A stretch of 48,804 bases of DNA. Origin: Thermoplasmata archaeon (GTDB lineage: Archaea > Thermoplasmatota > Thermoplasmata > Thermoplasmatales > ARK-15). Both the position numbers and the translations under genes were made by a program. The notes under the pieces are model-generated. The model was given only the letters and a program-made list of their open reading frames with translations. It had not been told where the DNA came from and made no database searches. The stretch is taken from contig JAGDXS010000016.1 of NCBI GenBank assembly GCA_023261755.1, positions 1-48,804 of the forward strand. The letters are read 5' to 3'. Positions 27,308 to 35,956 of the stretch are shown one piece after another. The stretch's first letter is position 1, and each line of letters starts with the position of its first letter.

Positions 27308-27835
27308 TTACTTCACCTCCAGAATTTCTATGCCAAAATTCTTTTTCATAAATTCAATTACCTCTTCTCTTTTTATTCTGTGCCTTTGTGGTATTTTTTT
27401 GAAGCCTATCTCTCTCTCCTGAACTCTCTGCCCTCCCTTTCTTTTGAATTTTACATTAACATCGAAGCCAAAGATGCCTATTTCTGGATCGTACTTTATA
27501 TTTGGGAAACTTGTATAATCCCTTATGCCAAAACTCAAATTTCCATTAACATCAAATGAGTATTGGGGCAATTTTGAATTTTTAACCCAAAGGGCCTTCT
27601 TAAGGAATTCCTCAGCATCCTTCTTCCTAAGGGTAACCTTCGTGCCAATTGGTTGCCTTTTCCTTATGTTAAAATCCCTTATGGTAGTCTTTGCTATTGT
27701 TTCAACAGGCTTCCTTCCTGTGAGTATTTCAATTACTTTTTCAGCTTTCTTCAACTTTTCTCCGCCCTCTCCTACTCCAATATTTATGACTACCTTATCT
27801 ATAACAATTTCCCTCATGGGGTTTTCACTGTTCAT
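27308..27835 (-). CDS. rpl5: Ribosomal protein uL5
   Basis: A 175-residue protein of the central protuberance that binds 5S rRNA and contacts P-site tRNA. KVVINIGVGEGGEKLKKAE and RKPVETIAKTTIRDFNIRK are family marks, and FGIRDYTSFPNIKYDPEIG is the conserved loop. GGAGGTGA lies six bases before ATG 27835, within the end of the S4e gene (11-bp overlap). Confidence 0.95.
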   Translation of the reverse strand: MNSENPMREIVIDKVVINIGVGEGGEKLKKAEKVIEILTGRKPVETIAKTTIRDFNIRKRQPIGTKVTLRKKDAEEFLKKALWVKNSKLPQYSFDVNGNLSFGIRDYTSFPNIKYDPEIGIFGFDVNVKFKRKGGQRVQEREIGFKKIPQRHRIKREEVIEFMKKNFGIEILEVK

Positions 27836-28550
27836 TTAAGTTCACCTCCGGAAGCTGGATTAAAGGTTTTATTACACCTACTGGAAATACATAACCCTTT
27901 TCTGTTTCAAATCCCTCTTTGAATTTAACCATATTTGGTGTAACTGCATTTACTATTTTGTAAGATTCAATTTTAGCTATTTTACCAACGTTCTTTCCAC
28001 CTGTAATGAATGCAAAATTGTTTTCAGAAAGGGGTATGTGGTCTATTACCTTACCCGTGGAAAGATCTATTTTGAGTGAATCACCAGTATTGTAAATTTT
28101 CTCATTCAATATAATATTCCTTCCGTCATCAAGGTTGTACTGAAACTTCTTTCCCTTAAGAATCTGAATGTTCTCTATTCTTGATAATTTCCATGAAGCA
28201 TCTTCACGTGGAATTTCAACAAGCCTAAGTTTTCCCTTTGTATCATAGAGGACCCTGTAATGTTTGTTCAAGTCCTCTATGGAAATTACATCCATAAAGC
28301 TAATTGGAAATTTATGATCTGTAACAACTCTACCGTTTACCTTGATTTTTCTCTGAGAAAGTATCTTTTTAACTTCCCAGAGCGTGTCTGAATAACCAAG
28401 GTAATCCCTTAATATTAGTGCCAACGCCAAACTATCATCATTTGAGTGTGGGCCAGCCCTTGGTTTTACTGAGAATTTATGCTCCTTTCTATGGATTTGC
28501 GTTACCTTGCTCAGGTTTAATCTCTTCAGATGTTTGCTCAACTTTCTCAC
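27825..28550 (-). CDS. rps4e: Ribosomal protein S4e (eS4)
   Basis: Archaeal/eukaryotic small-subunit protein of about 241 residues. It has the KHLKRLN and KFSVKPRAGPHS N-terminal marks, an S4-type RNA-binding domain (about 45-105), and a KOW-like C-terminal segment (FITGGKNVGKIAKIE). No ATG is available. The first start is GTG at 28550 with GAGG three bases away. A TTG three codons later (28541) has a better-spaced GGTGA. Either start lies 53-62 bp inside the uL24 gene, so the overlap is unusually long for this operon. Confidence 0.92.
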   Translation of the reverse strand: MRKLSKHLKRLNLSKVTQIHRKEHKFSVKPRAGPHSNDDSLALALILRDYLGYSDTLWEVKKILSQRKIKVNGRVVTDHKFPISFMDVISIEDLNKHYRVLYDTKGKLRLVEIPREDASWKLSRIENIQILKGKKFQYNLDDGRNIILNEKIYNTGDSLKIDLSTGKVIDHIPLSENNFAFITGGKNVGKIAKIESYKIVNAVTPNMVKFKEGFETEKGYVFPVGVIKPLIQLPEVNLNEQ

Positions 28551-32338: not shown

Positions 32339-32596
32339 TCAGAATACTCCCATTCTAGTTGCAATTTCATCAGCACTATATCCTTGCTTCAACTTTACCA
32401 ATGCTTTTTTACCTTCCTTCGTATATACAATATTAATATTCTCTACCTTTACATTGAATATTTTTTCAATTGCCCATTTTATTTCCTTTTTTGTTGCATT
32501 TCTGTGTACTATAAATGTTAATTTATTCTCCTTTTCAATCATGAACATTGCTTTTTCTGTTATGTAAGGTTTTACAATTATATCATATTCATTCAT
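32339..32596 (-). CDS. rpl23: Ribosomal protein uL23
   Basis: An 85-residue protein by the exit tunnel that docks SRP and the translocon. DIIVKPYITEKAMFMIEKEN and IKWAIEKIFNVKVENINIVY are diagnostic. ATG at 32596 overlaps the uL4 stop (ATGA); an upstream in-frame start at 32605 is unlikely because GGTGGAT lies directly before 32596. Confidence 0.95.
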   Translation of the reverse strand: MNEYDIIVKPYITEKAMFMIEKENKLTFIVHRNATKKEIKWAIEKIFNVKVENINIVYTKEGKKALVKLKQGYSADEIATRMGVF

Positions 32597-33357
32597 AGTA
32601 TCCACCCTCTTACTTCTTCTAAAGCATTTTCAGAAAATACAGTCAACCTTCCAGGATTTGCTCCAGGGGCTAAGATTTCCGTATTAATTTCATTTGGAGT
32701 AATAACCTCAACGCCTGGCAGATTCTTGAATGATTTCTCTACCTTTTCCTTATTTTTTACAACTATTAGAATGCTCTTAGGAGTGTAATATTTCCTTCCC
32801 CTGAGCTTTCCCTTGCCTGCCCTAATTTTTGTGCCATTTTTTGCCCTTTTAATATCGCCGTCTAAACCAAGTTTTTCAATGAACTTAAGTGCGTCTTCCA
32901 AATTGTCAATACTTTCCAGGGCATTTTCAACAACAACAGGTAATGTTAAATCATTCTTGAATACATGGCCCCTATTCTTTACCATTTCTTTGTTTGATGT
33001 CATGGATAATGCTGATAACTTTGAAAGAAGCTTCTCTTTTTTGTTTATTTTTCTGTACCAGATGCGCTGTGTCGTAGGAGCGAAGGCTGTTCTACCTCCT
33101 ACCATGTTATTCATTATTACACCTCTATCCCCATCTGGGCGCCTCATTACCCTTGCCCTTCCATGGTTCGGGCCCCAGTTATGGCCTACCCTCCTTAGAC
33201 CTGCAGTTGGGGAAACACCATACGGTTGCCTTGAATTTGATTGGAATGCATGAATTACCTTTTTTATAATATCAGGTCTGTATGGATATTCAAATGCTTT
33301 TGGGAGATTTATTTGGGATTTTACATTTCCTTCAAGATCATACAAATTTACCTTCAT
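32593..33357 (-). CDS. rpl4: Ribosomal protein uL4
   Basis: A 254-residue protein with a long loop that lines the exit tunnel: PYGVSPTAGLRRVGHNWGP and GRARVMRRPDGDRG. The archaeal C-terminal part contains GRKYYTPKSILIVVKNKEKV. In E. coli L4 represses its own operon by binding the leader, which makes it one candidate ligand for the structured leader upstream of uL3. It lies three bases after uL3. Confidence 0.96.
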   Translation of the reverse strand: MKVNLYDLEGNVKSQINLPKAFEYPYRPDIIKKVIHAFQSNSRQPYGVSPTAGLRRVGHNWGPNHGRARVMRRPDGDRGVIMNNMVGGRTAFAPTTQRIWYRKINKKEKLLSKLSALSMTSNKEMVKNRGHVFKNDLTLPVVVENALESIDNLEDALKFIEKLGLDGDIKRAKNGTKIRAGKGKLRGRKYYTPKSILIVVKNKEKVEKSFKNLPGVEVITPNEINTEILAPGANPGRLTVFSENALEEVRGWIL

Positions 33358-33360
33358 TTT

Positions 33361-34377
33361 TTATACCCCCTGCTTCGAATTTCTAGAAACATAAACAAGC
33401 TTTATTTCATTCTCTTCAATGTTAACATCTGTAGGTCTTATTGGATCCCTGAACCTGATCAATCTTTTTGTTGTACCAGGTATTGATCCATGCACAAGGA
33501 TGTATGGATTTCTTACAAGGCCGTAATTAAGAAAGCCACCCTCAGGATTAACATCCTCTTTAGGTTTGTTATTTTCAACGTTCACAAATTTAATAATTCT
33601 TTTATTATATTCCGTTCTTTGCTGATTTCCCAACTGGCCAGCCATGGGTACAGTAAACATTATCCAGTTAGGATGCCATGGGCCCAGTGTTCCTATCATC
33701 CTCCTGTGCTTTCTATTTTTTCTTGGAAGAAGCTTTACACCAAACCTTTTTATATGTCCTTGAAAGCCCTTTCCCTTTGTTACCGCTATAACATCAACAA
33801 GCTTACCTGGTGAAGAAAAATCCTTAAAAGTTATTTCTTTACCAAGTTTTCCAAGGGCATAATCAATGCGCTGTTCTATAGTACCACCACCAACTCTCAT
33901 TTCCATGATTTCAGGTTTCTTCTTTGGAACACCTGTTACCTTGGAAGGCTTAGTATAAACTATCAATCTAACTTCGTCAATATCAGATTTATTGAGCTTT
34001 TCAATTTTTTCTTTTTGATCTTTTTTTGGTATTGATATAATTCTTGAAAGCTCCTTTTCAAGGTTATTTGACCATATTTCACTATAGACCTGAAGGCCGT
34101 ATGTACTCTTCCTGTAGAACCTTATACCGGCCACGCCAAGTGGTGGTACCTCAACAACCGTTACAGGTATGCTTATTTCTTGACCAGCTGTTTCACTCTT
34201 TTTTCTCCAATCTACCATTAAAACATGTGTCATTCCAACTTTGTAACCAGCAAAACCTTGTACTTTAGGTCCTTCATCTATTTCCGGCCAGCTGTCCACA
34301 TGTGGTACCAAACTTTTAGCTCTTCTCCTTGGATAATAGGCCATAGAGCCATGCCTCGAATGATGCGGTGTCGCCAT
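33361..34377 (-). CDS. rpl3: Ribosomal protein uL3
   Basis: A 338-residue archaeal-type L3, the first gene of the superoperon. The N-terminal HHSRHGSMAYYPRRRAKS stretch and VTKGKGFQGHIKRFGVKLLP reach toward the peptidyl-transferase centre. GGAGG lies upstream of the ATG (34386-34390 on the minus strand). The 224-bp gap before it holds a predicted promoter and a foldable RNA element. Confidence 0.97.
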   Translation of the reverse strand: MATPHHSRHGSMAYYPRRRAKSLVPHVDSWPEIDEGPKVQGFAGYKVGMTHVLMVDWRKKSETAGQEISIPVTVVEVPPLGVAGIRFYRKSTYGLQVYSEIWSNNLEKELSRIISIPKKDQKEKIEKLNKSDIDEVRLIVYTKPSKVTGVPKKKPEIMEMRVGGGTIEQRIDYALGKLGKEITFKDFSSPGKLVDVIAVTKGKGFQGHIKRFGVKLLPRKNRKHRRMIGTLGPWHPNWIMFTVPMAGQLGNQQRTEYNKRIIKFVNVENNKPKEDVNPEGGFLNYGLVRNPYILVHGSIPGTTKRLIRFRDPIRPTDVNIEENEIKLVYVSRNSKQGV

Positions 34378-34406
34378 ATTTTTTTCCTCCAGTTTTTATT
34401 TCTTTC

Positions 34407-34498
34407 TCCTACCCGTGACACTTACTTAGTGCCCAAAAGCAAGTTCAGGCACTGAGAACGGGATCCATCATGGATTTTCCCTCTGTGTCTGGGTAAGA
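34407..34498 (-). ncRNA. Predicted three-way-junction RNA in the leader of the ribosomal operon
   Basis: On the minus strand, just before uL3, base pairing by eye gives a closed three-way junction. P1 pairs 34491-34498 with 34407-34414 (eight pairs, one G-U), then after a one/two-base internal loop 34485-34489 with 34417-34421 (five pairs). P2 pairs 34478-34481 with 34460-34463 and 34471-34474 with 34464-34467. P3 pairs 34448-34453 with 34428-34433 (six pairs) around a 14-base loop. Junction strands are zero, one and six bases. It starts about 10 nt after the predicted transcription start and ends about 30 nt before the L3 ATG. It could be an operon-control leader or a separate small RNA. No known family was recognised. 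Confidence 0.55.
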
Positions 34499-34530: not shown

Positions 34531-34540
34531 ATATATAAAA
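34531..34540 (-). promoter_or_regulatory. TATA box for the ribosomal superoperon
   Basis: The minus strand reads TTTTATATAT. Standard spacing places transcription start near 34510, which would give a leader of about 130 nt before uL3. That is far longer than the leaderless or 10-nt leaders elsewhere in this window. Confidence 0.5.
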
Positions 34541-34601: not shown

Positions 34602-35078
34602 ATGGGGAATGAAAATTTATCTCCATTGGAAAAATTGGAACTTTTGTTACCAGGGTTCAAGTTTTACAAATCAATGGATCTTATTAGGCAAGATGATGCT
34701 CTAGTTAGGTATGCATTAAAAAATAATTTGGAAAAATTGAGAGAGCTCATAGAACTTAAGGAGGAGGAAATTGCATCGAAGAATCCTATGGATGATAGAA
34801 TACATGGATATGAATCATTACTTGTTTTATTAAGATCTTTTATACAGGAAATATTTGCAGCACAAAGTGGAATGTATATAATCTATTCAAGGTACAAAAT
34901 AGATGAAAATGATCTTAAAAATATATTAAACCATGATTATTCATTAATATCAAATTCAAAGGATATATTGAATAACTTTAATAGGATGGATATTGAAAGT
35001 ATAATTGAAAATATAAGAAATCTTAGAAAGACATTTTTAGAAAGGGAAAAATATTTTAACCCAGAAAATATTAGATAA
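34602..35078 (+). CDS. Helical protein of unknown function, partner of SPFH protein
   Basis: A 158-residue soluble protein that I do not recognise. It is rich in Leu, Ile, Glu, Lys and Asn and looks entirely alpha-helical. A region around 45-65 (EKLRELIELKEEEIASK) and one near 130-150 (IENIRNLRKTFLEREKY) could form coiled coils. No signal peptide, cysteine motif or membrane segment is seen. It is followed 14 bp later by the SPFH-domain gene with a strong ribosome site, so the two form an operon and the products may act together. Its own start is predicted leaderless. Confidence 0.7.
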   Translation: MGNENLSPLEKLELLLPGFKFYKSMDLIRQDDALVRYALKNNLEKLRELIELKEEEIASKNPMDDRIHGYESLLVLLRSFIQEIFAAQSGMYIIYSRYKIDENDLKNILNHDYSLISNSKDILNNFNRMDIESIIENIRNLRKTFLEREKYFNPENIR

Positions 35079-35092
35079 ATAAGGAGGTAAAA

Positions 35093-35956
35093 ATGGCAAC
35101 TTCTGTAGTTTTTAGAACAGTCGTTAGAACTCTACTTGAAAATGGCCAGGATGTTATGGCTCCAGGAGTTATGGTATGGCGTGATCATAACGTGGATATC
35201 AGAACAAGATCAAGATTAATTGTTGAATCTAATCAAAAGGCCATTGTTAGAATACAGGGGCAAATTACACAGGTTTTTGAACCAGGATTTTATGATTTGA
35301 GTACTCCAAACACTCCTGTTGCTAATTTCTTCTCTAGGCTGGGATACGGAGGTAATGTTCCTTGGACTGTGGAAGCAATATTCTTTTCACTTTCTAGGTT
35401 CGAGGCAAGAACAAATGGTGTTTCTCAGACATCAGAATTAATTCCTCTAATATATCAGGTGGCATACTATTTCCAGATCACTGACCCTGTTAAATTAATA
35501 CAGGCAGTCCAGCTTAACGGGGCCTTTTATACAGTAAATGATCTTTCAGTTTATGTATCACCCATTATAGATCAGGCAGTGTCACAGGTATTGAATGCAG
35601 TATCAATAAAAGATTTGTATTCAAACCTGCAGAAAATAAGTGAAAGTGTATCTGCATCTCTTAGAAGCATTCTGAATGAATTAGGTATAAATTTGATAAT
35701 AAGCAGGGTCATTAGAATTGAACCTGAAGATGAAACAATGAGAAGGATAGTTCAATTAACAGGCATGGGCATAGATATGAATACAGCAATAAGGGCTAGA
35801 TTATCAGAAATAATGGCATTGAAATCTGATCCTGCTGCAACGAATATGTTTTTAGGAACACCTTATTTCAATATGTATATTCTTCCAATGGGACAGAGTC
35901 CTCAGGTACAGGCTGTTCAACAAAGTACTGATAATAAACAGAAAAAACAGCCTTAA
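35093..35956 (+). CDS. SPFH/band-7-like domain protein
   Basis: A 287-residue protein with an SPFH-like core: GVMVWRDHNVDIRTRSRLIV, a strand-rich region with SNQKAIVRIQGQITQVFEPG, YYFQITDPVKLIQAV, and a helical stretch 160-245 (LYSNLQKISESVSASLRSIL). It resembles soluble SPFH proteins of the YdjI/virion-core-like group more than flotillins, and no N-terminal membrane anchor is visible. SPFH proteins form oligomeric rings or scaffolds. The job here is unknown. The start is fixed by AGGAGGT (35082-35088) four bases before ATG. The tail (residues 265-287) is Gln-rich and likely disordered. Confidence 0.8.
   Translation: MATSVVFRTVVRTLLENGQDVMAPGVMVWRDHNVDIRTRSRLIVESNQKAIVRIQGQITQVFEPGFYDLSTPNTPVANFFSRLGYGGNVPWTVEAIFFSLSRFEARTNGVSQTSELIPLIYQVAYYFQITDPVKLIQAVQLNGAFYTVNDLSVYVSPIIDQAVSQVLNAVSIKDLYSNLQKISESVSASLRSILNELGINLIISRVIRIEPEDETMRRIVQLTGMGIDMNTAIRARLSEIMALKSDPAATNMFLGTPYFNMYILPMGQSPQVQAVQQSTDNKQKKQP

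Follow-up and report, generated by a model that had tools for sequence, protein, structure and literature searches.

The window, by which we mean the whole stretch of DNA analysed (48,804 nucleotides of a Thermoplasmata archaeon contig), carries on its minus strand a ribosomal-protein operon in the order L3-L4-L23-L2-S19-L22-S3-L29-Rpp29-S17-L14-L24-S4e. The 5' untranslated region of this operon contains, on the same strand, an RNA element with a three-way junction (Table 1); that the element belongs to the transcript is inferred from the position of a TATA box. On the other side of the promoter lies a divergent gene (34602-35078, plus strand, 158 aa) without a Pfam match, which adjoins an SPFH/Band 7 gene at 35093-35956.

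Table 1. Features of the leader region and of the genes discussed, in window coordinates.
Feature	Position	Strand	Evidence or remark
Three-way-junction leader RNA (P1/P1' closing stem, P2, P3)	34407..34498	minus	fold, covariance model, covariation
P1 5' strand UCUUACCC	34491..34498	minus	8 pairs with 34407-34414; covarying pairs in alignments A1 and A2
P1 3' strand GGGUAGGA	34407..34414	minus	covariation in A1 and A2
Internal loop, 5' side, A34490	34490..34490	minus	A in 97/100 sequences
Internal loop, 3' side, AC (A34416-C34415)	34415..34416	minus	invariant, 100/100 sequences
P1' 5' strand GACAC	34485..34489	minus	5 pairs with GUGUC 34417-34421; fold and covariation
P1' 3' strand GUGUC	34417..34421	minus	fold and covariation
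P2 hairpin	34460..34481	minus	fold, covariation, column conservation
P3 hairpin AGUGCCU...GGGCACU	34428..34453	minus	sequence variable, hairpin kept
TATA box TTTATATA of operon promoter	34532..34539	minus	position-specific across the order
Shine-Dalgarno GGAGG	34386..34390	minus	sequence; 8 nt before ATG
rpl3 (uL3), first operon gene	33361..34377	minus	Pfam PF00297, E 1.4e-88
rpl4 (uL4), candidate ligand	32593..33357	minus	Pfam PF00573
rps4e (eS4), weaker candidate ligand	27825..28550	minus	Pfam PF00900, PF08071

The first-pass annotation, made from the sequence alone, had proposed that the minus strand of 34407-34498 forms a 13-pair closing stem (8 + 5 pairs with a small internal loop) enclosing two further stems. 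Both parts held, with P2 and P3 folding as the two inner hairpins. The proposed junction strands of 0, 1 and 6 nt are unsupported, these lengths depending on non-conserved pairs; in the fold they are 3/3/3, or 3/6/6 if a weak extension of 2 pairs is left out. The element scores 48.5 bits against the covariance model. When the window leader (151 nt) is folded alone, its z is -1.92 and 4 of 200 dinucleotide shuffles are equally stable; such a single-sequence fold is weak evidence, only marginally above chance.

The conserved structure of the element is supported by covariation, which was scored in two alignments with different weaknesses. A1 is a MAFFT alignment of 85 sequences, in which 18 proposed pairs were scored; its cores were trimmed at matching motifs before alignment, but the alignment of its stems took no account of the structure. 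It contains 197 double-changed cells versus 88.8 +/- 7.9 in shuffles, and 84.4% of its pair cells are paired versus 31-38% for slid structures. A2 is a model-fitted alignment of 100 sequences across the phylum and is by construction biased towards the structure; here 315 double-changed cells were counted versus 96.4 +/- 14.8 in shuffles (0 of 500 shuffles for all five measures) and 92.6% of pair cells are paired versus 31-43% for slid structures. In P1', for example, G-C is exchanged for U-A and A-U for G-C among relatives. Compensatory changes in related genomes had been proposed as the check, and their absence as a refutation; covariation is strong, so that refutation failed.

The core consensus reads RCC-A-N-AC..., followed by the P2 hairpin, a variable P3 hairpin and ...GU-N-ACGG, and the two N's pair with each other (G-C in the family of the window, U-A in the largest one, C.A in one family). 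P2, which like the A/AC loop is near-invariant, starts with GGG, or GGC in one family, and in other genomes takes the form GGG-CAA-UGC...GCA-W-CCC with a 3x1 internal loop. P3 is too variable in sequence to be aligned and is present as a hairpin nearly everywhere, with a mean z of -2.57 over 100 sequences (86/100 below -1; window -2.43). Among unpaired columns, the A and AC of the closing-stem loop are nearly or fully invariant over 100 sequences (Table 1) and the C-A-A of P2 is kept in 94/85/94% of them. The near-invariant A/AC loop fits the expectation for a binding site, for which we have no binding data. One genus, g29 (L054, L068, L069, L073, L074), has an extra hairpin directly 5' of P1, for example GGUGCU...AGCGCC.

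The TATA box begins 47 nt before the core CC in the window. Across the order a TTTAWATA-like box (at most one mismatch) was found upstream in 81 of 93 leaders, 76 of these having it 30-44 nt before the core CC; the control stretch has one in 12 of 89. With the usual archaeal spacing between TATA box and transcription start, the mRNA would begin at P1 or just before it. It is therefore plausible that, as had been suggested, a TATA box, now placed at 34539-34532, directs a transcription start some 10 nt before the stem. An rpl3 mRNA start downstream of 34407, which would have refuted the leader, is unlikely because the boxes sit at a fixed distance, an argument that remains an inference from TATA position.

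Is the element then a leader, or is it a small RNA in its own right (guide or trans-acting) that lies between promoter and rpl3 and is released by termination or processing? The second possibility had also been raised by the first-pass annotation, and the element is indeed compact (~90 nt), with ~75 nt between it and the start codon in some families. Against it, in the order the core is only 13-35 nt from the ATG (median 19), an SD-like motif adjoins the stem in 90/91 members, and T-runs between leader and start codon occur in merely 2/91, leaving 89/91 without one. Besides, every examined match with a continuing contig is tied to rpl3, and no Rfam guide-RNA match was found. Since there are hardly any T-run terminators and the SD-like motif comes right after the stem, we disfavour the small-RNA reading and regard it as unlikely.

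The preferred reading, a structured leader of the rpl3 mRNA, is strongly supported by the covariation, the position after the promoter and the distribution of the element. A protein search of the order found rpl3 in 104 of 117 genomes, and comparison of their upstream regions placed the element directly before rpl3, on the same strand, wherever the contig extends far enough, with G023 as the sole exception. The covariance-model search of archaea that had been suggested at the outset was run and gave matches across class and phylum: model R1 matches 243 of 400 genomes of the class and 205 of 293 of the phylum (70%), usually as a single copy per genome. Among the matches whose surroundings were inspected, those at class level lie upstream of a co-directional rpl3 ORF in 39 of 40 cases, the fortieth (L190) being at a contig end with no rpl3 sequence, and those at phylum level do so in 20 of 20. 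Named records with the element are a Poseidoniales MAG (L005) and Thermoplasmata and Thermoplasmatales MAGs (L002, L003, L004), from which we take the phylum to be Thermoplasmatota.

One genome, G048, has two different leader copies (L123/L190; G048:C20:7-98), the second at a contig end; a strain mixture in the MAG is possible.

Twelve genomes without a listed R1 match were examined at rpl3 and scored without filters. Five do carry the element (G139, G117, G425, G422 and G127, the last two weakly); on this rescoring it is absent upstream of rpl3 in five genomes of family f15, in G023 and in G420. In f15 (L220-L223, L225) a TATA-like motif is found merely ~40-60 nt before the rpl3 ATG, so close to the start codon that the leader was apparently lost along with its space. 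In the phylum of L006, model R2, built from R1 matches, gave no match among 394 genomes; without a positive-control genome this is weak evidence, but R1 itself matches 70% of the home phylum. The single genome of L007 was empty as well; searches beyond the home phylum were limited in breadth.

Some families carry additional elements between the leader and the start codon. In 14 relatives in f24, f32 and f33, a few of them possibly from neighbouring families, nearly invariant blocks GAGAG...UCUC...GAGGG are found between element and ATG, with competing hairpins (L152, L153, L155, L157, L161, L163, L173-L175, L178, L179, L186, L188, L189). CUCUCUC is complementary both to the upstream GAGAGUG, leaving the SD free, and to the SD GAGAGGGAGA, which would then be hidden, and single folds of these relatives show both alternative hairpins. 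Family f24 has a further block, ACACUCUU, able to pair with the first block in an attenuator-like manner. These blocks support translational control in f24, f32 and f33 as an inference; the switch is unprovable by covariation because the block pairs hardly vary. The GAGAG/UCUC/GAGGG blocks are missing from the families of the window's order. A general switch in the order, in which the SD would pair with the transcript's 5' end, was also considered; its p was 0.006 over all genomes but the median p rose to 0.16 with one genome per genus, and the idea was dropped. As a separate observation, family f11 (L151, L154, L156, L158, L160 and others) has a second sequence-conserved hairpin, GCGAGGUUAGCGAAGA.ACCCUCGC, after the three-way junction, between the leader and the rpl3 ATG just before the start-codon region.

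The element could also be a purely structural 5' cap, which needs no protein ligand and either keeps the mRNA from being degraded at its 5' end or exposes the SD. Its placement at the predicted 5' end of a presumably highly expressed mRNA and the variable sequence of P3 speak for this. However, a generic stem would need neither an invariant unpaired AC nor a P2 with a conserved CAA, and the switches that could sequester the SD in f24, f32 and f33 point to regulation, so that a cap appears unlikely.

Returning to a regulatory leader, what would it sense? R-leaders often, though not necessarily, resemble the rRNA site of their ligand. Comparison with rRNA sites, a check proposed together with the leader, revealed no convincing mimicry: no site in 23S or 16S rRNA resembles the P1 core, and the CAA/W loop of P2 resembles 16S helix 15 only, with 53-79 of 1000 shuffled rRNA sets (5-8%) matching as well. 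Helix 15, with h17, is bound by bS16 (PMC5591316), and the N-terminal domain of eS4 takes the position of bS16 (PMC11354259), so the likeness is a faint pointer to eS4. As a mimic of h15, P2 was rejected, since shuffled sets match too and family f4 has no P2 loop; it remains a lead only. An upstream ORF in P2/P3 of the window genome (AUG AUG GAU CCC GUU CUC AGU GCC UGA) was rejected as well, being missing in the congeners G001 and G002. The lack of rRNA mimicry in the P1 core and the weakness of the P2/helix 15 likeness would favour a leader that responds to a non-operon signal, such as some other part of the ribosome, a factor of initiation or assembly, or a small molecule. Against this stands the exclusive tie to the ribosomal superoperon, which agrees with autoregulation, the way in which such leaders usually work, and we consider a non-operon signal improbable.

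The best explanation is thus a ribosomal-protein leader (r-leader), an autoregulatory 5'-UTR element bound by a protein of its own operon. We consider this likely, with binding and repression being inferred. It rests on the covariation, the position after the promoter, the phylum-wide conservation upstream of rpl3, the position of the SD and the complementarity of the switch blocks, and meets two of the defining criteria of r-leaders, namely a covarying structure and a same-strand 5'-UTR position before a ribosomal-protein operon; the other two, specific binding by a protein of the operon and lower operon expression upon binding, are inferred. The protein ligand, the direction of feedback and the translational level of control are inferences without binding or expression data. 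Among ligands, uL4 has a precedent, L4 being the protein to which an established r-leader of bacteria responds (PMC7247131); by this analogy it ranks first, though it is less likely than not to be the ligand. Binding of uL3 is less likely still and of eS4 doubtful, with the remaining probability spread over other candidates. The first-pass proposal of an autoregulatory leader sensing L3, L4 or another operon product is therefore strongly supported as to the structured leader; autoregulation is the best inference and the ligand cannot be named.

In the mechanism that we propose, the operon mRNA would begin with the three-way-junction RNA, which an operon protein would recognise whenever its amount exceeds that of rRNA. 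By contacting the conserved junction, the internal loop and P2, the protein would stabilise the closing stem just 5' of the ribosome-binding site, and the stabilised stem would block 30S loading on rpl3. In the window's order the block may be achieved simply through the closeness of the core to the start codon, while in f24, f32 and f33 a switch would be added, with CUCUCUC pairing either with GAGAGUG or with the SD. A bolder reading, which we consider slightly less likely than not, is that of a phylum-wide r-leader class, inherited from an ancestor of most of Thermoplasmatota, whose ligand and mode of binding, without rRNA mimicry, would differ from those of all described leaders. Its outputs would be exchangeable: in one order the start region would be occluded directly, and in other families a sequestor/anti-sequestor switch would hide the SD.

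Searches of Rfam 15, including known r-leaders, gave no family above the curated gathering cut-off for the window or 13 relatives, and no description of the element was found in the literature searched, most subscription papers being outside its scope. Four archaeal leaders, for eL15, two for S15 and a borderline one for L4 in Archaeoglobi, were described by Eckert and Weinberg, 2020 (PMC7247131); none is assigned by name to Thermoplasmatota, the eL15 leader being listed for Euryarchaeota at large. The L4 candidate is likewise an archaeal, predicted 5'-UTR element and precedes rplC, rplD, rplW and rplB; however, it is reported from Archaeoglobi only and rated borderline by its authors, and its consensus structure was not compared with ours. 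The eL15 and S15 leaders are also covariation-predicted 5'-UTR elements, in other operons, and their authors report possible resemblance to rRNA binding sites, which the P1 core of the window leader lacks. For L7Ae, an RNA-binding ribosomal protein, RIP-seq has suggested a role in regulating translation in Archaea (PMC5539422); that control rests on kink-turns, whereas inspection of the window leader revealed no tandem G-A pairs and a kink-turn was rejected. The S10-operon leader of E. coli is known to autoregulate its operon. It responds to L4 and heads the homologous operon, but is bacterial, and no direct structure comparison was made. Compared with these systems, the element is likely, by structure and position, to be a new archaeal r-leader, with protein binding and repression inferred, through which the cell most likely throttles its ribosomal-protein production. 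As it precedes the main ribosomal operon in most sampled genomes of the phylum and has a precise consensus, the way in which Archaea balance the supply of ribosomal proteins and rRNA can be put to a direct test on a single RNA and some dozen candidate proteins.
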